From assembly GCA_021850985.1 (NCBI GenBank), contig JAJZJX010000003.1, positions 1-64,000 of the forward strand: a stretch of 64,000 bases of DNA. Reading direction: 5' to 3'. The notes beneath the pieces are model-generated. The model saw nothing but the letters and a program-made list of their open reading frames with translations, was not told where the DNA came from and searched no databases. Of this stretch, positions 4,860 to 40,934 are shown piece by piece. This DNA is from a bacterium (GTDB lineage Bacteria; SZUA-79; Acidulodesulfobacterales; Acidulodesulfobacteraceae). Made by a program: the position numbers and the translations under genes. Every line of letters begins with the position of its first letter. Within the stretch, counting starts at the first letter, position 1.

Positions 4860-6029
4860 ATGGGCAGGATAGACGATATTTTAACTAAAAATAAAATGAC
4901 AGAAAAGGGAGTTATGGGCATTTACAGTCTTTTTGCCCAAAACAATATAAGGCTTTTAAAAGACTTGACGCATTTTACTCGGAAAGATATAGACGGCATA
5001 GGTAAAATAAAGGGATGCATAGAAAATATTTCTTTAAAAATAGCTTCGGATTTTTACGACTATCTTCTTAATATCGAAGAAACCGCCAAAATTATTAATT
5101 CAAGACCAGACCTTTTAGAACAGCTAAAACTTACGCAATCGCACTATATAAAGCAGCTGTTCGGATTAACGTACGACGAAAATTATTTTATAAACAGGGT
5201 TATAGTCGGTTTTGCGCATTACGTTTATAAGATATCGCCTTCGGTTTACATAGGAAGCTACGGCTATTACAATACGCTTATAACGGATGCCGTTATGAAA
5301 TGCTGCAAGGAAAAAGGCATCGGCAGCGAAGAGTCTATATCTATACTTAATTCCGTACAGAAAATACTTTCCATAGATATAACGCTTGCCATAGAATCGT
5401 ATTATCAAAAATCTATAGACGACGTTTACAAGATGGAGCACGATTCTCTTAACAGGCTGATGGTTTTAGCGGAATACAGGGATGAAGACACCGGAAATCA
5501 TATTTCCAGAATGTCCCGTTATGCCGCCGTTATAGCGAAGGAACTTGGAATGGACGGCGTTTATCAGGAAAATATATTGAATTCCGCTCCTATGCACGAT
5601 ATAGGCAAGGTCGGAATACCCGATAATATTCTTTTGAAACCCGGACGTTTAGATAAAGACGAATTTGAAATTATGAAGTCGCACACTGTTATAGGATATA
5701 ATATTTTAAAGGATTCCGAATCAAATACTTTAAAGGAAGGAGCGGTTATAGCGCTGTCTCATCACGAAAACTACGATGGAAGCGGATATCCAAACGGATT
5801 AAAGGGGGATACCATACCTCTTTCCGGACGGATTACGAAGATCGCCGACGTTTTCGACGCGCTTATAAATAAACGTATATATAAACCGGCTTATACGCTT
5901 GAGGAAACTCTCAGGATAATGAAAGACGAAATGAAGCCGGGGGCAGCTTTCGACCCGTATTGTTTCGGCGCATTTTTAAAAGGTTTAGACGAGATACTGG
6001 AAGCAAGGCGGAAAATTGATACGGAATAA
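4860..6029 (+). CDS. Globin-coupled HD-GYP c-di-GMP phosphodiesterase
   Basis: 389 residues. Residues about 55-185 look like a protoglobin sensor: an all-helical segment with GFAHYVYKISPSVYIGSYGYY, where H120 is the candidate proximal haem ligand. Residues about 200-380 form an HD-GYP phosphodiesterase: DEDTGNHISRMSRY, the HD pair (H246-D247 in MHDIGKVGIPD), SHHENYDGSGYP with the GYP signature (309-311), and a late KIADVFDAL helix. The inferred role is haem-based sensing of O2 (or NO/CO) that controls c-di-GMP breakdown in the cytoplasm. The start has a strong GGAGG 5 nt before ATG. A PhoB-like regulator follows but has its own promoter. No transmembrane segment is visible. Confidence 0.8.
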   Translation: MGRIDDILTKNKMTEKGVMGIYSLFAQNNIRLLKDLTHFTRKDIDGIGKIKGCIENISLKIASDFYDYLLNIEETAKIINSRPDLLEQLKLTQSHYIKQLFGLTYDENYFINRVIVGFAHYVYKISPSVYIGSYGYYNTLITDAVMKCCKEKGIGSEESISILNSVQKILSIDITLAIESYYQKSIDDVYKMEHDSLNRLMVLAEYRDEDTGNHISRMSRYAAVIAKELGMDGVYQENILNSAPMHDIGKVGIPDNILLKPGRLDKDEFEIMKSHTVIGYNILKDSESNTLKEGAVIALSHHENYDGSGYPNGLKGDTIPLSGRITKIADVFDALINKRIYKPAYTLEETLRIMKDEMKPGAAFDPYCFGAFLKGLDEILEARRKIDTE

Positions 6030-23962: not shown

Positions 23963-24274
23963 ATGGAAAAGATAATAGATAAAAACAATGAAGTATTATA
24001 TAGGCTAAAAGATTTACCAATAAGCAAAGGGGCTTTCTGGCACTGTGATACTAATAAATCTTATTTTCCATTGTCTAAAATATTGCATCAAGTTTTGGAA
24101 AATAGCGATTTGGGTAGTATTTTAAAATTAGTTTCCATGTTTAATTATGATGAAATAGAAGCCGCTTATAAAAAAATAAAGCCCGAGTTTTATAAAAAAC
24201 AGGAAATTGGTTATATTGCTTTAATGGAACTATTAGGAATTATTATTGATATTAAAAAAGAGGATAAAATATGA
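23963..24274 (+). CDS. Small partner protein of the AbiEii-like nucleotidyltransferase (DUF6922-like)
   Basis: 103 residues. The pattern FWHCDTNKSYFPLSKILHQVLE..DLGSILKLV resembles short proteins (DUF6922-like, starting FWD..D) that often precede AbiEii-type nucleotidyltransferases. The stop overlaps the next start (ATGA), so the two are co-translated. By position it would be the antitoxin, but it is much shorter than canonical AbiEi and shows no obvious winged-helix DNA-binding domain. The function is therefore inferred from the pairing alone. Confidence 0.6.
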   Translation: MEKIIDKNNEVLYRLKDLPISKGAFWHCDTNKSYFPLSKILHQVLENSDLGSILKLVSMFNYDEIEAAYKKIKPEFYKKQEIGYIALMELLGIIIDIKKEDKI

Positions 24275-24996
24275 AATCTTTGATATGGTCTGAAGGTACT
24301 GAGAGAGTGCTGGATTCATTATCTAAAGAACCTTTAATTAAAAATTACGTCTTTGTAGGCGGCAGCGCTTTAAGCTATCATATTAAGCATAGATTATCCG
24401 AAGATATAGATTTATTCAGCCCGTCATCTGCTTTAAATAACGAAGAAGTTAATAATATAATTAACAATATGGCTAAAAGAGGTTATTATGTCGAAGATAT
24501 CGGGGTTCCTTTCAGCGAGACCCACAGAAAATTCCATATAATAGGAATTAAAGTAGAATTCGTAGCGTCGGGAAGAGATTTTTTAAATAACGAACATACT
24601 AATTTAAGAAATAACCTTAAGGTTGCAAATCTTAATACGGTTGCTGGAATGAAAGCTTTTACCGTAACGCAGAGAAAAGAAATAAGGGATTATTACGACA
24701 ATTATGTTTTATCGGAAAAATTCGGTATAGATTTTCTTATTAAACAAGCTAAAGAGCTTTACGGCGGTCAATTCAGCGAAAAAGCTTTTTTATCCGCGCT
24801 TATAACTGGAGACAAAGTTTTTAAAGAAAATTATATAGAGGAAAGGCTTTTTCCTTCGTTCAAAATTTCAAAGGAAGAAATGAGCTCTTTTTTTAAAATA
24901 AAAGTCAAAGAATATTTAAAAGATTTTCTTTCTAACGAACAAACGCTTCAGCAAGACGCCTTTACCAAAGACTTAATAATATTTCGCAAAAATTAA
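24271..24996 (+). CDS. AbiEii/AbiGii-family nucleotidyltransferase (toxin-like)
   Basis: 241 residues. The DNA polymerase beta-type nucleotidyltransferase core is visible: VFVGGSALSYHIKHRLSEDIDLF (GGS at 30-32; metal-binding D45 and D47), and the later KAFTVTQRKEIRDYYDNYVL helix typical of the AbiEii fold. Members are type IV-like toxins or phage-abortive factors that act by adding nucleotides to tRNA or other targets. The partner is the overlapping 103-residue protein. The island location supports a defence or maintenance role. Confidence 0.85.
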   Translation: MKSLIWSEGTERVLDSLSKEPLIKNYVFVGGSALSYHIKHRLSEDIDLFSPSSALNNEEVNNIINNMAKRGYYVEDIGVPFSETHRKFHIIGIKVEFVASGRDFLNNEHTNLRNNLKVANLNTVAGMKAFTVTQRKEIRDYYDNYVLSEKFGIDFLIKQAKELYGGQFSEKAFLSALITGDKVFKENYIEERLFPSFKISKEEMSSFFKIKVKEYLKDFLSNEQTLQQDAFTKDLIIFRKN

Positions 24997-31526: not shown

Positions 31527-34500
31527 ATGAATAAAAATTTCAACGCTAAAATTACCGAATATTTCATAGAAAATAAAATCACGTTACTTCTTATATTATT
31601 CATAATCGGTTTCGGAATAATAGCGGTTATGTTGACTCCGAGGCAGTATAATCCCCAGATTATAGTTCCCGCCGCCAACGTAATAGTCAGGTTTCCCGGG
31701 GCAAGCGCCGAGCAGGTTAAGAATTTGGTCACAAAGCCTTTAGAAAGAAAAATGTGGCAGATTCCGGGCGTAAAGCATGTTTATTCCATATCTATGAATT
31801 CCGAGTCTATAGTTACCGTGCAGTTTCACGTAAATGCAAGCCGCGACAAAAGCCTAGTCGATATTTATAATAAAGTCTTTTCAAACTTGGATGAAATTCC
31901 GAAAGGAGTAATGCGTCCGCTTATAAAACCGATTGACGTAAATCACGTTCCTATTCTCGACATTACGTTATGGAGCAAAAAATACGATGCGGGGTATCTG
32001 ACGACTATTGCAAACAGAATATTGTTCAAATTAGATTCCGTTAAAGGAACCGGCGTTACATTTTTAAACGGGGCGAGATACAAACAGCTTAATGTATATC
32101 TAAATCCTGTAAAAATGGCAGCATACAACGTTTCTCCGCTTATGATAGCGCAGGAACTTAAAAACACTAACGTTAATATGCCTGCAGGTTTTTTAAGGAA
32201 CGACAATAAGAAAACATTTATTGCCGCCGGCGGATATTTCCATCACGCAAGGTCGGTTAAAAACTTTATAATATCGGTTTATAACGGAAAACCGGTTTAT
32301 TTAAAAGACGTCGCAAAGGTCAAAGCTTCATATAAACCTTTAAATTTTTTATCGGAAATAGGATTCGGCAGTCATTACAGGAAAATTAACGCAAACGACA
32401 GAATAATAAAAGGTGCTAAGGGCGTTTATCCTGCGGTTACTATAGCCGTCGCTAAAAGAAGGGGCAAAAATGCTGTTACCGTCGTCGATAACGTTGTTGC
32501 CAAGTTCCGCAGAATAGCCGAAACAAGCCTGCCCGCGGGAGTTCATTATACTATAACCAGAAACGACGGCAAAAAGGCGAACAATGCCGTAAATAAACTG
32601 CTGTTTCATTTAATTATAAGCATAATCATTGTAATAGTCCTGCTTCTGCTTATACTGGGCTGGAGAGAAGCTTTTATAGTAGCTTTTACGATTCCGCTTA
32701 TGCTTTTTTTAACCCTCGGCATTGCATATGTTTTTCATCAGACGCTGAACAGAATTACGCTGTTTGCGCTTATCCTTTCTTTAGGACTTTTAGTCGATAA
32801 CGCGATCGTCGTAATAGACAACATAGAGAGGGTTTTTTCGAGGGAAAGAAACGTTCTGCCGACATATGCCGTGGATGCGGTAAACGAAATAGGAAATCCT
32901 AATTTTTTTGCGACCCTTGCGGTTATATCTTCTTTTATTCCTATGCTTTTTGTCGGAGGCATGATGGGTCCGTATATGAGGCCTATTCCTTTTAACGTGC
33001 CTATAGCAATGCTGGTTTCTTTATTTGTGGCTCTTACGGTAGTTCCCTGGTTTTATCTTAAATTAATGGCAAACGAAAAGGGAATGGCTCTTTTAAGGAA
33101 AAAAGAATTAAAAGAAGAAGGAAAAGACGTTAATTCCGGATTATATGCAAGAATATTAAAACCCCTGCTGTCAAGCAAAAAGAAAAGATATATTTTTATG
33201 TCGGTCATTATAATTTTATTTATTTTGGCAATGTCGCTTCCCGTTTTAAAAATTGTTAAATTTAAAATGCTTCCGGTAGCCAATACAAACACTTTTTTAA
33301 TTACGGTCAATAAACGTCCGGGTTCCACCTTTGAATCTACAAATATCGCTACGATGCACATAGTTAATTATTTAAAACGCATAAAACAGGTAAAAAATTA
33401 CGTAATTACGGTAGGCACGCCTTCCGTAATAGATTTTTCCGGTCTTTTGAGGGGAGCAAATTTTAGGAACGCAAGCTGGTATTCGGAAATAAGGGTTAAT
33501 TTAATAAATAAAGACAAAAGAAGCACTTCGTCGCATCAGCTTGTATTAAATATACTTCCTGAAGTTCATAAAATAGGAAAAGAATATAATGCCGACGTAA
33601 AAGTATTGGAAAGTCCGCCGGGACCTCCCGTAAAATCGACTATAGTCGCCGAAATATACGGCAATAATTATAAAGAGCAGGAAAAGCTTTCTAAAATAGT
33701 GGAAGCGAGGATGAAAAGAACGAGGGGCGTTACCGACGTAAATTCTTCTTATAAAAAGCGGATTAGAAAAATAATGCTTATAGTCAGAAGAAGAAAAGCG
33801 GCTCTTATGGGAATAACTACTCAAATGATAGCTCAGTCGCTTTATATTTTAAACAACGGCATGAGCGTAGGAACGATACACAAGAAAGAGCATTTGCATC
33901 AGGAAGATATATTTTTGAGAATGCCGGACGATTTCAGGACGGACGCAAATGCGTTGTCTTCGGTGTGGATTTATGCGCCGTATGCCGGAAGATTAGTGCC
34001 TTTAAATTCCGTAGTAAAAATAAAACGCGGCTATCTGCATAATATGATATATCAGAGAGATTTAAAATCCGTCGTCTATGTTTACGGAAAAGTAGTCAAA
34101 AGAAGCCCTATGTATGCAAATTTGGACCTTTTCCTGCATTTTCTAAAGCATCCGCTTCCGACAGGCTATAGAATACGCTGGGGAGGCGAATGGCACCTGA
34201 CGCTTAAAGTTTTTGCCCAGTTAGGCGCGGCTATGGGAATCGCAATTTTGCTTATTTATATATTGCTTGTCGGTTATACCGGTTCTTTTATAATACCGTT
34301 AATACTTATGGGCGCTATACCTCTTGAAATGATAGGAATAATGCCCGGTTTCGGCTTAATAGGGGTTTATTTTACGGCTACTTCCATGATAGGCGCTATT
34401 GCTCTGTCCGGCATAGTCATAAGAAATTCGCTGCTTTTGCTTGAATTTATCAACGACAAAAAAAAAGAAGGGTATAATATAATAGATTCTCTGGTAGCGG

Positions 34501-34718
34501 CGGGATCAATGAGGGCAAGACCTATTATTATAACGGCTCTTGCAGTAGTATTCGGTTCGGCTATATTAGTAACCGACCCTGTTTGGAACGGTCTGGCATG
34601 GGCTCTTATTTTCGGAATGATAGCTTCCACGACGCTTACGCTTATCGTTATTCCCGTGCTGTATTATATGATAGAAGGTAGAAGGTGGCATAAAGAAGAT
34701 ATTCACGAGAATTTGTAA
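31527..34718 (+). CDS. RND efflux permease (AcrB-like, HAE1 type)
   Basis: A 1063-residue inner-membrane proton antiporter with 12 transmembrane segments and two large periplasmic loops. Seen: TM1 (ITLLLILFIIGFGIIAVML), the porter signature FPGASAEQVKNLVTKPLE, the TM4 motif LGLLVDNAIVVIDNIERVF (the proton-relay Asp followed by Asn rather than the common Asp-Asp), and C-terminal TM11-12 (RPIIITALAVVFGSAILV..). It lacks the DFGIIVDGAVV pattern of heavy-metal CzcA pumps. The substrate is unknown. It is paired with the adaptor 100 bp upstream. Confidence 0.92.
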   Translation: MNKNFNAKITEYFIENKITLLLILFIIGFGIIAVMLTPRQYNPQIIVPAANVIVRFPGASAEQVKNLVTKPLERKMWQIPGVKHVYSISMNSESIVTVQFHVNASRDKSLVDIYNKVFSNLDEIPKGVMRPLIKPIDVNHVPILDITLWSKKYDAGYLTTIANRILFKLDSVKGTGVTFLNGARYKQLNVYLNPVKMAAYNVSPLMIAQELKNTNVNMPAGFLRNDNKKTFIAAGGYFHHARSVKNFIISVYNGKPVYLKDVAKVKASYKPLNFLSEIGFGSHYRKINANDRIIKGAKGVYPAVTIAVAKRRGKNAVTVVDNVVAKFRRIAETSLPAGVHYTITRNDGKKANNAVNKLLFHLIISIIIVIVLLLLILGWREAFIVAFTIPLMLFLTLGIAYVFHQTLNRITLFALILSLGLLVDNAIVVIDNIERVFSRERNVLPTYAVDAVNEIGNPNFFATLAVISSFIPMLFVGGMMGPYMRPIPFNVPIAMLVSLFVALTVVPWFYLKLMANEKGMALLRKKELKEEGKDVNSGLYARILKPLLSSKKKRYIFMSVIIILFILAMSLPVLKIVKFKMLPVANTNTFLITVNKRPGSTFESTNIATMHIVNYLKRIKQVKNYVITVGTPSVIDFSGLLRGANFRNASWYSEIRVNLINKDKRSTSSHQLVLNILPEVHKIGKEYNADVKVLESPPGPPVKSTIVAEIYGNNYKEQEKLSKIVEARMKRTRGVTDVNSSYKKRIRKIMLIVRRRKAALMGITTQMIAQSLYILNNGMSVGTIHKKEHLHQEDIFLRMPDDFRTDANALSSVWIYAPYAGRLVPLNSVVKIKRGYLHNMIYQRDLKSVVYVYGKVVKRSPMYANLDLFLHFLKHPLPTGYRIRWGGEWHLTLKVFAQLGAAMGIAILLIYILLVGYTGSFIIPLILMGAIPLEMIGIMPGFGLIGVYFTATSMIGAIALSGIVIRNSLLLLEFINDKKKEGYNIIDSLVAAGSMRARPIIITALAVVFGSAILVTDPVWNGLAWALIFGMIASTTLTLIVIPVLYYMIEGRRWHKEDIHENL

Positions 34719-34793: not shown

Positions 34794-35555
34794 ATGCCTG
34801 TAAAATTTAATTGCGCAAACAGCTGTATTGCAGAGATAAATTTGGATTTAGACGGTAAAAGTTCGTTTAATATTACCGAAATAAACGAACTTATAAAAAT
34901 ATTCGAATCTAATTTAGAAAAAGAAATCGATTTAAAAGCTGTCGTAATTAAAAGTACAAACCCCGATTATTTCGCTACAGGACCTGAAATTAAAGAAATA
35001 GCCGGATTGGACAGGGAAGGCGCAAGATATTACGTGACCCTTCTTAACGTATTGACTAAGCATATTTCCGAATCGTCCGTGCCTGTTGTATGCATTATAA
35101 ACGGCGCCGTCAGCGGTATAGGGCTTGATATAGTTTCTTCGTGCGATTTCAGGCTTGCCGGACCGAAGGCGTCGTTCGCCGATTTGTCTTCCAAATACGG
35201 AATATTGTATCCCTCCCATATTATTTTAAGACTGTCTTTTTTAATAGGAGTGCAGAAAACTAAAGAAATTTTGTTAAGTTCTAAAATATATACCGCAGAG
35301 GAAATGTACGGAATTAATTTCTTAGCAGATTATTTTAACGGGGAAAATTTCGAAAAAGGAGTTAACGGATTTATTGAAAATTTTAAAAGTCTTTCCATTG
35401 ATTCATTACGGCTTAAGAAAAAATTATTTATAGATTTATGGAAAAACTATCTTAAAAACAATCAGCTTCCTGCAGAAGAGATTTTTTCGGAAATTTTAAA
35501 AGAAGGTAAAGACTGGAAAAAATCGGTAAAAGATTTTTACGGCGATTCCCTCTAA
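34794..35555 (+). CDS. Enoyl-CoA hydratase/isomerase-family (crotonase-fold) protein
   Basis: 253 residues. A crotonase core is visible: AVVIKSTNPDYFATGPEIKEI in place of the canonical FxAGxD oxyanion segment, and CIINGAVSGIGLDIVSSCDFRLAGPKASFADLSSKYG for the second oxyanion strand. The acidic catalytic residues of enoyl-CoA hydratases are not clear, so the reaction (hydration, isomerisation or thioester chemistry) is open. It sits 103 bp before the lipoyl-carrier genes on the same strand. A promoter lies between, so co-function is an inference. Confidence 0.8.
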   Translation: MPVKFNCANSCIAEINLDLDGKSSFNITEINELIKIFESNLEKEIDLKAVVIKSTNPDYFATGPEIKEIAGLDREGARYYVTLLNVLTKHISESSVPVVCIINGAVSGIGLDIVSSCDFRLAGPKASFADLSSKYGILYPSHIILRLSFLIGVQKTKEILLSSKIYTAEEMYGINFLADYFNGENFEKGVNGFIENFKSLSIDSLRLKKKLFIDLWKNYLKNNQLPAEEIFSEILKEGKDWKKSVKDFYGDSL

Positions 35556-35581
35556 TTATTTTTGAATTTTTTGCGATATAC

Positions 35582-35610
35582 TTGAGAATAAGAAAAAATT
35601 ATAGTATTAT
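35582..35610 (+). promoter_or_regulatory. Promoter of the lipoyl-carrier operon
   Basis: TTGAGA (35582-35587), a 17-bp spacer and TATTAT (35605-35610); the expected start is about 40 nt before the first lipoyl-carrier ATG, which has its own AAGGAGG. Confidence 0.55.
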
Positions 35611-35657
35611 ATAACTAATTCAATTCAATTTAATATAAAATTAAGGAGGAATTTATT

Positions 35658-36098
35658 ATGTCGTCCAAGATTAACGGATGCGATATTCCGGAGGATTTAT
35701 ACTACAGCGTAGAAAAACACGTGTGGGGAAAATTAGGCGACGACGGAATAGTGACCGTCGGAATGACGAGCGTAGCTCAAAGCTTAGCCGGTAAACTTTT
35801 ATATCTTACTCCTAAAAAAGTCGGACAAAAGATAGCCCAGCTTAAATCCGTAGCAACTGTAGAAAGCGGAAAATACGTCGGTCCCGTCCCCGCTCCGTTT
35901 TCCGGAGAAATAACGGCGGTAAACGAAGATGCCGTTAAAAACGTATCCTTAATAAATTCAGACCCTTACGGCAAAGGATGGGTTTGTAAAATTAAACCGG
36001 ACAATGCAGAAGCGGATAAAAAAAATCTGCTTACCGGAAAAGAAGCGGTAGAAGCCTATAAGAAAAAGATTGAAGCCGACGGAATTAAATGCGAATAA
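35658..36098 (+). CDS. lbpA: GcvH-like lipoate-binding protein, LbpA type (copy 1)
   Basis: A 146-residue lipoyl carrier. The lipoyl lysine is K72 in VESGKYVGPVPAP; true glycine-cleavage H proteins have ESVKA here. An ESGK-x-VGP context is, to my knowledge, a mark of LbpA proteins, which carry the lipoate used by the sHdr sulfur-oxidation complex. The start DIPEDLYYSVEKHVWGKL and GMTSVAQSLAGKL fit the H-protein fold. No gcvT or gcvP lies nearby; instead a second copy and lipoate-assembly enzymes follow. The ribosome site AAGGAGG is strong. Confidence 0.8.
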   Translation: MSSKINGCDIPEDLYYSVEKHVWGKLGDDGIVTVGMTSVAQSLAGKLLYLTPKKVGQKIAQLKSVATVESGKYVGPVPAPFSGEITAVNEDAVKNVSLINSDPYGKGWVCKIKPDNAEADKKNLLTGKEAVEAYKKKIEADGIKCE

Positions 36099-36146
36099 AA
36101 TAAATAAAACTGCAAAATATAAATTTGTAAAAATTTGGAGATATAA

Positions 36147-36593
36147 ATGCCTATTTTTAATGAATGCAATCTGCCGGAAGACCTTTATTACGATATCGAA
36201 AATCAGGTTTGGGGCAGAAAAAACGGCGACGGAACTTTTACTTTCGGCATGACGGATCCGGCTCAGTCTTTAGCCGGCAAGATTCTTTACGCAGACGTTA
36301 AACCGGTCGGCAAAATTATTAAAAAAGGGAAAAGCGCCGCTACAATAGAAAGCGGAAAATACGTCGGTCCTTTTCCGATGCCTTTTGCCGGCGAAGTAGT
36401 AGAGGTAAACAAAGAACTTGAAAATGATTCTCATATTATAAATACCGACCCGTACGGAAAAGGCTGGATTGTAAAATTAAAGCCTCTTCCGGAGTCCGTT
36501 TCGGACGTAAATTCCCTTCCTTTCGGCGAAGAAGCCGTAAAAGCCTATGTTAAAAAGCTTGAGAAGGAAGATATAATCTGCAAAAAGAGATAA
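36147..36593 (+). CDS. lbpA: GcvH-like lipoate-binding protein, LbpA type (copy 2)
   Basis: 148 residues, clearly a paralogue of the preceding protein: LPEDLYYDIENQVWG, GMTDPAQSLAGKI and IESGKYVGPFPMP with lipoyl K71. The two differ most at the N-terminus and in the 50-63 surface. It lies 48 bp after copy 1, with TTGGAG upstream, and 2 bp before the radical SAM gene, so it is surely in the same operon. Two tandem carriers suggest separate client complexes or a dosage effect. Confidence 0.8.
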   Translation: MPIFNECNLPEDLYYDIENQVWGRKNGDGTFTFGMTDPAQSLAGKILYADVKPVGKIIKKGKSAATIESGKYVGPFPMPFAGEVVEVNKELENDSHIINTDPYGKGWIVKLKPLPESVSDVNSLPFGEEAVKAYVKKLEKEDIICKKR

Positions 36594-36595
36594 AT

Positions 36596-37597
36596 ATGAG
36601 TTTTTATGAATATAACGAAAATATCGGCGAAGAATATGCAGAAGGTTTTGAAATCAGAAAAAATTATTTTGATTCTGAAATAAATTTTTACGCTCCAAGT
36701 ATAAAATCTTACGAAACGGAAGATTTTAAAAATACTAAGTCCGATTCCTTCCCTCCTTTTTCTATTACGGGCGGTTCATGCTCTTTAAAATGCGAACACT
36801 GCAATGCGGAAATTTTAAAATCTATGGCTCCGGCTTTAACTCCGGACGAACTGTTTGAAAGAGCCGATGTTATTCATAAGTCCGGAGGGCTGGGTTTTCT
36901 TCTTAGCGGCGGTTCTAACAGCAAAGGAATAGTTGATATTCTGCCGTATATAAAAACTATCAAAAAGATAAAATCGGAATTAAACCTTAAGGTAATAGTG
37001 CATTGCGGGCTAATTACGGAAGAGATAGCCGACGGGCTTTTAGAAGCCGGCGTGGACTCCGCCATGCTGGATATTATCGGCGAAGAAGATACGATACGTA
37101 AAATTTATCATCTTAACGCAGAAGTTAAAGACTATGAAAATTCCTTAAAATATTTATCCGACAGAAAAATTCCCTGCTCGCCGCACGTAGTAATAGGGCT
37201 GAAACACGGCGTAATAGCCGGAGAATTTAACGCAATAGATATTATATCCGATTACGATATATCGTCGCTTGTATTGGTCGGTTTTATGCCTATGCATAAT
37301 ACAAAAATGGAAAATATAATTCCGCCTGCCGCAGAAGAGATAGGGAAGGTTTTTTTATATGCGCGGAAAAAATTTATTAAAACTCCGGTTCTTTTAGGCT
37401 GCGAAAGGCCGTACGGATTGAGCAAGTTTAAAATAGAAGAACTTGCCGTAAAAGCAGGTTTAAACGGAATAGCATATCCGTCGGAAGGAATAATTCCTTT
37501 CAGCGTAAAATTAGGTTTAAAGCCTAAATTTTCAGAGGTATGCTGTTCTTTAATTTTTTCCGAATCGGCTTTGCAGGTAATAGAAACCGGCAATTAA
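36596..37597 (+). CDS. Radical SAM protein, probable lipoyl synthase partner (LipS1/LipS2 type)
   Basis: 333 residues with a radical SAM cluster motif CSLKCEHC (C62, C66, C69) and a GGSNSKG segment that may serve as the SAM-binding strand. Cysteines near the C-terminus (LLGCERPYGL; EVCCSLIF) could bind a second, auxiliary iron-sulfur cluster that donates sulfur, as lipoyl synthases require. In archaea and in sHdr bacteria two radical SAM proteins, LipS1 and LipS2, insert the two sulfurs into octanoyl-LbpA. The context (LbpA upstream, ligase and a second radical SAM gene downstream) supports that role. I cannot say which of the two it is. Confidence 0.7.
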   Translation: MSFYEYNENIGEEYAEGFEIRKNYFDSEINFYAPSIKSYETEDFKNTKSDSFPPFSITGGSCSLKCEHCNAEILKSMAPALTPDELFERADVIHKSGGLGFLLSGGSNSKGIVDILPYIKTIKKIKSELNLKVIVHCGLITEEIADGLLEAGVDSAMLDIIGEEDTIRKIYHLNAEVKDYENSLKYLSDRKIPCSPHVVIGLKHGVIAGEFNAIDIISDYDISSLVLVGFMPMHNTKMENIIPPAAEEIGKVFLYARKKFIKTPVLLGCERPYGLSKFKIEELAVKAGLNGIAYPSEGIIPFSVKLGLKPKFSEVCCSLIFSESALQVIETGN

Positions 37598-37670
37598 ATT
37601 AGCTCAAAATCCGATAATTTTTCTAATATAATTATAATAAATAGTTATTATATATAAATATTTATTGCGC

Positions 37671-39218
37671 ATGTTTAGAGTTATAGACACCGGCTTAAAA
37701 GATTTCTCTTATAATATATGCATGGATAAGGCCCTGATAAAATTAAGAAAAGAAGGGTTGATAGAAGACACTTTCCGGTTTTTAAGATTCGAACCCTGCG
37801 TTTTGACCGGTTACCATCAGTCCGTATCCAGCGAAATAAGATTAGATTACTGCAAAGAAAAAAATATAGCCGTCGGCAGAAGAATTACCGGAGGCGGAGC
37901 TATATATTTCGACGAAGCCCAGCTTGGCTGGGAGCTTGTTTTTTCGGCTAAAAGCATTAAAATTAAGAATTTGGACGATTTGACCGAAAATATATGCACG
38001 GCTTTTGCCAAAGGAATGAAAAAGCTCGGAATAAATGCCGAATTCAGGCCGAGAAACGATATAGAAGTCGAAGGGCGAAAAATATCGGGCACAGGCGGAA
38101 CTTACGAATCTTCGGTTTATTTTTTTCAGGGCACGCTGCTTTTGGATTTCAATCCTGAAAATATGGTAAAATCCTTAAAAATACCTATAGAAAAGCTGAC
38201 CGCTAAGAATTTTGACTCTATTTTATCGAGGGTTACTTCGGTGAAAAGTATTCTGGGGAATATACCAGATTTAGATTCTATAAAATCTGCCGTTTTAGGC
38301 GGATTCAGGGAACATTTAAATTTAGATTTTTACGAATCGGAAATCTCAAAGGAAGAGGAAAATTTTTTAAATAAAAACCGTTCTTTTTATTCGTCTAAAG
38401 AATGGATTTACTCAAAAGATTTCGATCCGGCGGAAACAAAAATAATTTCCGAAATTTATAAATGCGGAGGAGGAGTTTTTAAAACCTTCGCAAAAGTTGA
38501 CGAAAAAAGAAATTTATTAAAATATATATATTTTACGGGAGATTTTTTCGTTTCGCCTGCAAGGACGGTCAACGATTTAGAAAGCTGCCTTAAAGACGTT
38601 CCGCTGGATGAAGCGGTATTTAAAATAGACGGTTATTTTGAAAAATTTAAGCCTGAGTTCCGCAACGTAAAAAAAGAAGATTTTTTTAACATAATCGTTC
38701 AAATAATAAATAAAGTTCGGTTTCTTAAAAACGCGGGCGTAAAAGAAGAAGATTTATCGAGATTTACATTTGTAAACGGAATGAATGCGGAAGATATTTC
38801 TTCGGCGGAATATATTTTGCTTCCTTACTGCGCAAAAAAACCGGACTGCGAGTTTAGAAACAAAGATAAATGCATTGCCTGCGGAGAATGCGAAACGGGT
38901 ATAGCATATAAATTTGCGGAAAAATACGGAATTGTTCCAAAAACCGTTATAAGCTACGAAAATTTAATAGAAACCCTAAAAGAGCTGAAAATAAAAGGGA
39001 TTAAATCTTACATAGGCTTCTGCTGTAAAGAATTTTATATAAAAAGAAACGAAGCGTTTAAAAACAGCGGCATAAAAGCTCTTTTAATCGATATTTCTTC
39101 TCCGTTATGCTATAAATATAAAAAAGAAAACGATGCTTACGACGGCAGATTTGACGGAGAAACTGCGCTCGGTGCACGCGTTTTATTTAAAATTTTTAAA
39201 AATAATTCCTTATTATAA
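37671..39218 (+). CDS. Lipoate-protein ligase (sLpl(AB)-like) fused to a DUF116-like domain
   Basis: 515 residues from ATG 37671. Residues about 1-230 are an LplA-type ligase: RRITGGGAIYFDEAQLGW and GRKISGTGG with the catalytic K137. Residues about 240-335 match the ligase accessory (LplB-like) domain (YKCGGGVFKTFAKVD..). Residues about 380-500 form a cysteine-rich DUF116-like domain (LLPYCAKKPDC, C401-x2-C404-x2-C407, a CC pair at 451-452 and C480) that could bind a metal or an Fe-S cluster. The ligase would attach lipoate or octanoate to LbpA. The ligase-DUF116 fusion is unusual. Confidence 0.75.
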   Translation: MFRVIDTGLKDFSYNICMDKALIKLRKEGLIEDTFRFLRFEPCVLTGYHQSVSSEIRLDYCKEKNIAVGRRITGGGAIYFDEAQLGWELVFSAKSIKIKNLDDLTENICTAFAKGMKKLGINAEFRPRNDIEVEGRKISGTGGTYESSVYFFQGTLLLDFNPENMVKSLKIPIEKLTAKNFDSILSRVTSVKSILGNIPDLDSIKSAVLGGFREHLNLDFYESEISKEEENFLNKNRSFYSSKEWIYSKDFDPAETKIISEIYKCGGGVFKTFAKVDEKRNLLKYIYFTGDFFVSPARTVNDLESCLKDVPLDEAVFKIDGYFEKFKPEFRNVKKEDFFNIIVQIINKVRFLKNAGVKEEDLSRFTFVNGMNAEDISSAEYILLPYCAKKPDCEFRNKDKCIACGECETGIAYKFAEKYGIVPKTVISYENLIETLKELKIKGIKSYIGFCCKEFYIKRNEAFKNSGIKALLIDISSPLCYKYKKENDAYDGRFDGETALGARVLFKIFKNNSLL

Positions 39219-39243
39219 AAATAAAAATGGAGGATGTAAAAAT

Positions 39244-40338
39244 ATGAACGGACTAACGGGGCATGCGGCGGCTGAGTCGGCAAAAAATTTTGATAAAAAA
39301 AATGCGGATATTTCCGGAAGTTCTCCCGAATATTTAAAGGTGAGTCTTGCGGCTGCGATGACTATGGATTTCGTGCCGGGTATTTTTTACCGCAGCGCCT
39401 GTCTCCATTGCATAAACGTTCTTTTGACTTATGAAGAAGGGTGCAGGGCAAATTGCGCTTATTGCGGGCTTCAAAAATCTCGGGAAGGCGGATATAACGA
39501 TAAGAGTTTTATAAGGGTCGATTGGCCGGCGTATAGAACCGACGATATAATAGCATCGACTTTAAAAAAGAAAAAAATAGTGGACAGGATTTGTATTTCT
39601 ATGATAACGCACGAAAAGGCTAAAGAAGACACTTTTACTATTTTAAAAAGATTTTCCGGCGAACTCCACTGTCCCGTTTCTATACTTATGACTCCGACTA
39701 TATTAAAACATAAAGATATAGATGCATTTAAAGAATACGGAGCCGATATGGTGACCGTAGCGCTCGACGCCGCAACGCCGGAACTGTTCGACGAATACAG
39801 GGGCATAGGAGTGGGAGGCCCGCACAGATGGGAAAAATATATCGATACGCTGGAATATTCCGTTTCCGTTTTCGGCAAAAATAAAGTCGGATGCCACCTT
39901 GTCGTAGGACTCGGAGAAACGGAGAAAGAAATGTCCGAAAGAATGCAGGCGGTAAGGGATAAAGGGGCAAGATCGCATCTTTTTTCTTTTTATAGGGAAA
40001 AAGGTTCTAAATTAGAAAACCATCCTCAATGTCCTGCCGGCCAATACAGAAGAATTCAGGTTGCAAGGCATATAATAGACTACGATATGGGAAGAGCGGA
40101 AGATATGAAATTTGACGAAAACGGAAAAATAACGGATTTCGGAATACCGTTTAAAAACGTAGCGGAAATAGTAGAAAGAGGCACCGCTTTTCAGACTACC
40201 GGCTGTCCGGGCAGAACCGAAATTTCCGCTTGCAATAGGCCGTTCGGCGACTCTTCTCCTAAAAATATCAGAAGTTTTCCTTTTGAACTTAACGCCGCCG
40301 ACGTAAACAGGGTGAGAAAGGAACTGCTTGAATATTAA
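39244..40338 (+). CDS. Radical SAM protein, second lipoyl synthase partner (LipS1/LipS2 type)
   Basis: 364 residues from ATG 39244, chosen for the GGAGG at 39229-39233; the frame extends further upstream into the ligase gene. The cluster motif is CRANCAYC (C67, C71, C74), preceded by YRSACLHCINVLLTYEEG, with upstream C53 and C56. FIRVDWPAYRTDDII follows. More cysteines (CHLVVGLG, NHPQCPAGQ, TTGCPGRTEISACNRPFG) could hold an auxiliary cluster. It looks biotin-synthase-like but lacks partner bio genes, and the operon context points to lipoate sulfur insertion on LbpA. Confidence 0.7.
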   Translation: MNGLTGHAAAESAKNFDKKNADISGSSPEYLKVSLAAAMTMDFVPGIFYRSACLHCINVLLTYEEGCRANCAYCGLQKSREGGYNDKSFIRVDWPAYRTDDIIASTLKKKKIVDRICISMITHEKAKEDTFTILKRFSGELHCPVSILMTPTILKHKDIDAFKEYGADMVTVALDAATPELFDEYRGIGVGGPHRWEKYIDTLEYSVSVFGKNKVGCHLVVGLGETEKEMSERMQAVRDKGARSHLFSFYREKGSKLENHPQCPAGQYRRIQVARHIIDYDMGRAEDMKFDENGKITDFGIPFKNVAEIVERGTAFQTTGCPGRTEISACNRPFGDSSPKNIRSFPFELNAADVNRVRKELLEY

Positions 40339-40345
40339 ATAATGC

Positions 40346-40384
40346 AAACCGCCCCGTCAGGCTTCGCCTGACGGGGCGGTTTTG
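40346..40384 (+). terminator. Strong intrinsic terminator closing the lipoate locus
   Basis: A perfect 15-bp GC-rich stem (ACCGCCCCGTCAGGC / GCCTGACGGGGCGGT) with a TTC loop, extended by A/T pairs and followed by TTTTG. It begins 8 bp after the second radical SAM gene. Confidence 0.85.
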
Positions 40385-40450: not shown

Positions 40451-40475
40451 CCGTAATTTGAAAGGAGAACAAGAA

Positions 40476-40934
40476 TTGGACGAAGCGGAGTTAGTCAATG
40501 TCAAAGTTAAGCATTTACATAATTTGCAAAATCAGATTATTACGGAAAAACATACGATAATCACGGACGAGCCGGAGGCTTCCGGAGGCGACGAACTTGC
40601 TATTAATCCTATCGAGCTTGTGCTTGGAGGGGAAGGTTCGTGCACTATTTCCGTGCTTATGATGTTTGCAAAAAGAATGAAGTACGACCTGCAGGGCGTC
40701 GAAATAAATCTCACGCACAAAAGGGTCAGGGTCGAAGAACTAAAAGAATCGGGGATTGAAATAGACGACGAAAGGGGTTACGTCCATAAAATAGAAAAAA
40801 AGATAAAATTTATAGGAAATTTAGACGACGACCAGATAGAAGAGCTTCAGAGGGTTTCGCAGAGATGTCCCGTGCATACTATGATAGAAAAACGGACATA
40901 TTTTGAAATTTCATTCGATAATGCGGAAAAATAG
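40476..40934 (+). CDS. OsmC/Ohr-family protein
   Basis: 152 residues from TTG 40476, chosen because AAAGGAG ends 8 nt upstream; an earlier in-frame TTG at 40458 has no such site. The OsmC fold signature is present: NPIELVLGGEGSCTISVLMMFAKR (first redox cysteine) and VSQRCPVHTMIEKRT (second cysteine). The family either reduces organic peroxides or binds or transfers sulfur-type substrates. A two-Cys active site fits peroxide detoxification, but its place next to a putative sulfur-oxidation-linked locus makes a thiol role possible. The terminator upstream shows separate transcription. Confidence 0.85.
   Translation: MDEAELVNVKVKHLHNLQNQIITEKHTIITDEPEASGGDELAINPIELVLGGEGSCTISVLMMFAKRMKYDLQGVEINLTHKRVRVEELKESGIEIDDERGYVHKIEKKIKFIGNLDDDQIEELQRVSQRCPVHTMIEKRTYFEISFDNAEK

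Follow-up and report, generated by a model that had tools for sequence, protein, structure and literature searches.

Organization of the lbpA-lip Locus

The window, by which we mean the whole 64-kb stretch of DNA analyzed, belongs to a 1.9-Mb metagenome-assembled genome (MAG) of an acid-mine bacterium, in 84 contigs and 81% complete, whose best relatives are metagenome bins, one of them isolate SZUA-79; on taxonomy and shared gene content we take this SZUA-79 order to be the Ca. Acidulodesulfobacterales of Tan 2019. The plus strand carries, in the order lbpA-lbpA-lipS1-sLpl::DUF116-lipS2 followed by a hairpin, a compact group of genes whose features are:

35556–35574, no strand: junction, closed in the window, where relatives carry arsR plus the beta genes shdrC1-B1-A-C2-B2
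35582–35610, plus strand: probable sigma-70-type promoter of the lbpA-lip operon (TTGAGA-17-TATTAT)
35658–36098, plus strand: LbpA carrier 1 (PF01597, 1.8e-36; lipoyl lysine K72; C8 and C145; LbpA clade)
36147–36593, plus strand: LbpA carrier 2 (PF01597, 1.3e-36; lipoyl lysine K71; C7 and C145; LbpA clade)
36596–37597, plus strand: LipS1, radical SAM lipoyl synthase subunit (NF053742, E 1.5e-65)
37665–39218, plus strand: putative sLpl(AB)-type lipoate:protein ligase (PF21948, 4.9e-45) with a C-terminal DUF116 (PF01976, 2.3e-07)
38799–39113, plus strand: DUF116 domain (PF01976) inside the ligase
39244–40338, plus strand: LipS2, radical SAM lipoyl synthase subunit (NF053743, E 1.8e-64; start re-read, with GGAGG upstream)
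40346–40382, plus strand: strong hairpin of 17 pairs, probable operon terminator

A preliminary description of this DNA had reported two carriers with the motif ESGKYVGP, two radical SAM proteins with CxxxCxxC sites and further cysteines, a lipoate-protein ligase, and a strong terminator at the end of the locus, all of which we recovered: all five ORFs are present at the positions and on the strand above, both carriers contain the motif, and the radical SAM proteins read CSLKCEHC at residues 62–69 of LipS1 and CRANCAYC at residues 68–75 of LipS2 (numbered, in LipS2, from one residue ahead of the start Met), with additional cysteines that include CC316-317 in the former and CxxC54-57 in the latter. 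Upstream of lbpA on the same strand lie an RND pump gene (31527–34718) and then a crotonase gene (34794–35555), the latter having been placed by that description in front of the carriers; the gene is real, but it is a syntenic neighbor outside the unit, and we discarded it as a part of the system because in relatives arsR and five shdr genes separate it from lbpA. An OsmC-family gene (40458–40934), which is found beside lipS2 in most relatives and is absent in G028 and G029, directly follows the terminator; elsewhere, the window also encodes an AbiEii-type nucleotidyltransferase (24271–24996; PF08843) and a protein in which Protoglobin and HD domains are joined (4860–6029).

The promoter hexamers match the consensus at 10 of 12 positions, although the number of such matches in the region does not by itself exceed chance. 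The promoter core TTGAGAATAA..TAGTATTATA, of which TTGAGAATAA occurs once in the 64-kb window, is conserved ahead of lbpA1 in the majority of relatives, both with and without beta, and is weak or absent in G027, G028, G029, and the genus that we designate g2.

The Carriers and Their Maturation Proteins

In a tree of 87 proteins, LbpA1, LbpA2, and the product of a third lbpA grouped with the LbpAs of sulfur oxidizers, apart from GcvH, with support of 100/96, the long branch to GcvH making their exact position within LbpA less sure. LbpA is distinguished by a pair of conserved cysteines, one close to each terminus, that GcvH lacks (Cao 2018, PMC6067878); carrier 1 has both (C8/C145), as does carrier 2 (C7/C145), and the genome's own GcvH has neither. 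LbpA1 is 55% identical to LbpA2 of Acidihalobacter. The third lbpA (contig C44, L009:9498–9947), 51% identical to the first, is situated near small DsrE-like proteins, away from the shdr and lip genes, and is present in most relatives.

The profile search of the radical SAM proteins gave LipS1 and LipS2 as the best families, with scores that were under the NCBIfam curated cut-offs (221.5 bits versus 230 for LipS1, 218 bits versus 270 for LipS2) though in each instance far above any rival family. The identities with the proteins of an Acidihalobacter shdr-lip cluster were 40% for LipS1 and 49% for LipS2, and the ligase was 40% identical to the Acidihalobacter sLpl. Within the ligase of the window the LplA/B catalytic domain is clear and the LplB-like part weak (NF053749, 5.2e-07), and the full-length model (m9805ed32c9cd) matched, among solved structures, LplA-type ligases and their kin only.

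With regard to other routes to lipoate, LipA is encoded separately in this genome, on contig C68 (L031:717–1652), just past a pyrophosphatase gene and beside the sat-apr-qmo genes; and a LipM-like protein adjoins the true GcvH in most relatives, in which arrangement (e.g., L162:9089–10613) the pair lies downstream of an acetyl-CoA carboxylase-type gene. We did not find such a pair in this genome, for which the incompleteness of the bin may be the reason. Since a LipA is thus at hand, and a LipM-like protein stands beside GcvH in the relatives, the LipS1/LipS2 operon probably works for LbpA alone, like its counterparts in other sulfur oxidizers. No lipT is located inside the operon, and a LipT-like protein on contig C18 was rejected as LipT, its 34% identity being too weak.

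The DUF116 Extension of the Ligase

We found the ligase in 27 of the order's 30 species, and every one of the 24 full-length ligases compared possesses the DUF116, over which set eight cysteines of the domain and its flanks are invariant (C389, C395, C403, C406, C409, C453, C454, and C482). Since the remaining LbpA-linked ligases that we saw lack the fusion, it is specific to this clade among the loci compared, which comparison was drawn from LbpA-linked loci only, with crude ORF calling in the GC-rich ones and a phylum-level search that yielded no genomes beyond the order's 30; we count this fusion among the newest points of the present work. The predicted fold of the DUF116 is alpha/beta, and the domain alone gave no match with E ≤ 0.001 against PDB structures and no match of note against PDB sequences, while a single paper of the literature searched names it. 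Our guess, suggested by the cysteines and encouraged by the absence of lipT from the operon, is that the DUF116 may carry an iron-sulfur cluster that would aid the LipS1/LipS2 step by providing electrons or clusters.

The sHdr Genes Elsewhere in the Genome

The preliminary description had noted the lack of shdr genes, which statement holds for the window but not for the genome, since a search for shdrC1B1AHC2B2 disclosed a complete six-gene cluster on another contig. This cluster, which we call alpha, has the canonical order shdrC1-B1-A-H-C2-B2 on the minus strand of contig C8 (L030:9566–15457), where no lbpA was found; and its C1, B1, A, H, C2, and B2 subunits are, respectively, 50, 57, 39, 27, 33, and 36% identical to those of the Acidihalobacter cluster. 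In G002, the best assembled relative (5 contigs), alpha and the lbpA-lip locus occupy one contig at a distance of about 160 kb. The earlier suggestion that a lipoylation system of the sHdr type is used here is thus sustained by the LipS1/LipS2 matches, by the placement of the carriers in the LbpA clade, and by the presence of the sHdr cluster. Alpha B1 was found in 28 of the 30 species, so that the sHdr-LbpA system is near-universal in an order described as sulfate reducers, a result that we also count among the newest points.

The genome also contains dsrAB (contig C38) together with sat, aprA, the qmo genes, and dsrK (contig C68), for which reason sHdr is not the sole candidate sulfur route. 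The genus g2 (G002, G003, G004, G005, and G006) includes five species with alpha, four of them also with beta, in which no match to dsrA was obtained; because those five keep the alpha sHdr, the system is independent of Dsr in the group.

A Second sHdr Cluster at the Junction in Relatives

Whereas no shdr genes adjoin lbpA in this genome, they do so at the same locus in at least 10 relatives, where the interval between the crotonase gene and lbpA holds arsR together with another cluster, deeply diverged from alpha, that we call beta (shdrC1-B1-A-C2-B2; e.g., in G001, G002, G008, G013, L037, L041, L043, L044, and L046). In every case in which the contig extends far enough, beta immediately precedes lbpA. 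Beta occurs in about 15 of the 30 species, B1 having been found in 14 (in one as a fragment) and G010 showing C2-B2 at a contig edge. The junction lacks beta in 10 genomes, namely that of the window, G012, G015, G016, G017, G019, G022, G027, G028, and G029, with arsR retained at the site in G028 and G029; five further genomes, in which the contig stops short or sequence is missing, were left out of this count. No beta B1 was detected in the present 81%-complete MAG, nor did the closed junctions give any significant match to relics of arsR or of beta genes. The crotonase stop codon is at 35555, and from about 35574 the similarity to the B2-lbpA spacer of the beta-bearing relatives resumes and continues on to lbpA, the promoter included. 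The spacer before lbpA contains repeated TCTGACACCTTTTTC-type inverted repeats in some relatives (L034:9664–10000; L165) and none in the window.

No H was present between A and C2 of beta in the relatives, and this H-less cluster is likewise among the newest points. Beta B1, 45% identical to alpha B1, falls in the tree on a long branch outside all the sampled sHdrB1 proteins, and keeps a complete second CCG motif of the form C-CC-CxxC (residues 224, 263-264, 302, and 305), which the Acidihalobacter sHdrB1 does not have.

When plotted on the ligase tree, the presence of beta requires five changes, at least three of them forced by well-supported branches, a count resting on one gene and on MAGs. 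The identity at fourfold sites between genera was 0.32–0.41 for beta, 0.34–0.38 for lbpA and the lip genes, and 0.36 for the RND gene. Because the divergence of beta at those sites equals that of its flanks, the cluster is as old as the locus; beta was thus probably ancestral at the junction and was lost several times.

Proposed Function and Alternative Explanations

We propose, with a probability of roughly 0.85, that the lbpA-lip genes constitute a carrier and maturation operon of the sHdr-LbpA system, with a promoter of its own, which was orphaned by the loss of beta and would now serve the alpha sHdr. By analogy with the characterized homologs, the ligase would attach octanoate or lipoate to K72 and K71 of the two LbpAs, after which LipS1 and LipS2 together would insert the two sulfur atoms; the loaded carriers would then serve the six-subunit alpha complex, whose genes are present on the other contig and which is predicted to oxidize sulfane sulfur to sulfite. 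The second and older beta cluster, along with its ArsR regulator, would have disappeared, in the lineage of the window as well as in several others, from the gap between the crotonase gene and lbpA, to which loss we attribute the orphaned look of the locus; a promoter of its own would have enabled the operon to outlast that event. With a MAG of 84 contigs and 81% completeness, a beta copy might still lie elsewhere in the genome.

The carriers match PF01597 (GCV_H) and general GcvH models, and might on that account be regarded as extra GcvH proteins that act in glycine cleavage or in some similar one-carbon process, for which LipS1/LipS2 would be an alternative lipoyl synthase. A search of the genome for gcvP and gcvT, however, revealed on contig C73 a gcvT-gcvH-gcvPA-gcvPB operon with an ordinary GcvH, so that glycine cleavage does not require the two carriers; and as these place in the LbpA clade with both of its cysteines, and LipA is encoded separately, we ruled out the glycine-cleavage role and give the wider explanation hardly any credence. 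A question of more substance is whether in predicted sulfate reducers the LbpAs serve some process other than sulfur oxidation, such as sulfur disproportionation or a reductive sHdr, as the dsrAB, sat, aprA, qmo, and dsrK genes might suggest together with the occurrence of lipS1/S2 in bacteria devoid of sHdr (Tanabe 2023, PMC10332631). We consider this unlikely, in view of the fact that alpha matches the clusters of proven sulfur oxidizers both in its genes and in their order, that the five g2 species without a dsrA match keep alpha and in four instances beta as well, and that sqr and sox have been reported for the group (PMC6776010).

As to the history of the junction, the patchy presence of beta, with its five changes on the ligase tree, and the far greater likeness of the beta proteins between genera (86–94% identity versus 67% for the ligase) could also be explained if beta had been gained there several times by horizontal transfer, the window then displaying the ancestral state. 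The alpha subunits, however, are similarly conserved in protein (80–90%), and the fourfold sites, where beta is as diverged as its flanks, lend no support to a recent spread by transfer; the site and gene order of beta are, moreover, always identical, and two beta-less genomes retain the arsR associated with it, all of which renders repeated gain decidedly improbable. Returning to the loss of an ancestral beta, we would go one step further only tentatively, with more doubt than conviction: beta may encode a distinct, older, H-less sHdr-like complex with an HdrB-like B1 whose cysteine motif is complete, one LbpA pool may serve both beta and alpha, those lineages that lost beta keeping their carriers, and the DUF116 may act in lipoate assembly as an iron-sulfur partner of a new kind, built into the ligase. 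The probable losses of beta form a natural series with which one might establish the sHdr complex that is served by the LbpA carriers.

Relation to Known Systems

The locus resembles the sHdr-LbpA systems with LipS1/LipS2/sLpl(AB) of Hyphomicrobium, Thioalkalivibrio, and others (PMC6067878, PMC10332631) in the carriers with both terminal cysteines, the two radical SAM proteins, probably the ligase family, and the six shdr genes in the genome; it differs in that the carriers and maturation genes are unlinked to shdr, that the operon has no lipT, and that the ligase is fused to a DUF116. According to Cao 2018 (PMC6067878), hdr genes invariably occur together with one or more lbpA genes, whereas here the contig of the alpha cluster has none. 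With the arrangement groups I–III of those authors the genome shares the possession of two or three lbpA genes and dedicated maturation genes, but represents a further arrangement, with shdr alone, lbpA-lbpA-lip, and the third lbpA on three contigs. The preliminary description had called the layout unfamiliar, which judgment applies to the extra domain of the ligase and to the carriers without adjoining shdr, but not to the two carriers, since two per locus are ordinary (Cao 2018, PMC6067878); and the missing shdr neighbors would be accounted for by the loss of the second sHdr cluster from the gap between crotonase and lbpA. In the archaeal lipS2-lplA-lplB-lipS1 clusters (Tanabe 2023, PMC10332631) LipS1/LipS2 also adjoin an LplA-type ligase, but here a single chain combines that ligase with an LplB-like part and the DUF116, and the LbpAs are adjacent. 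The canonical LipM/LipB plus LipA route, of which the group likewise has components (LipA in this genome, the LipM-like protein in relatives), differs in consisting of separate genes outside the lbpA-lip operon, with probably separate targets.

According to our results, almost all species of this group, whose members have been described as acidophilic sulfate reducers, encode a complete sHdr-LbpA sulfur-oxidation pathway together with a dedicated means of assembling lipoate. We found no paper linking the Ca. Acidulodesulfobacterales with sHdr in the literature searched, which comprised few articles from subscription journals. Tan 2019 (PMC6776010) discussed dsr, sqr, and sox for these organisms, described there as acidophilic sulfate reducers, the main text being without a heterodisulfide reductase in sulfur oxidation. 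The most strongly transcribed genes in that study include hdrB2, hdrC2, and gcvH, which were filed under methane and glyoxylate metabolism; those transcripts may correspond to the sHdr and lbpA genes described here, although contig C65 of this genome carries a further Hdr-like cluster that is also a candidate.
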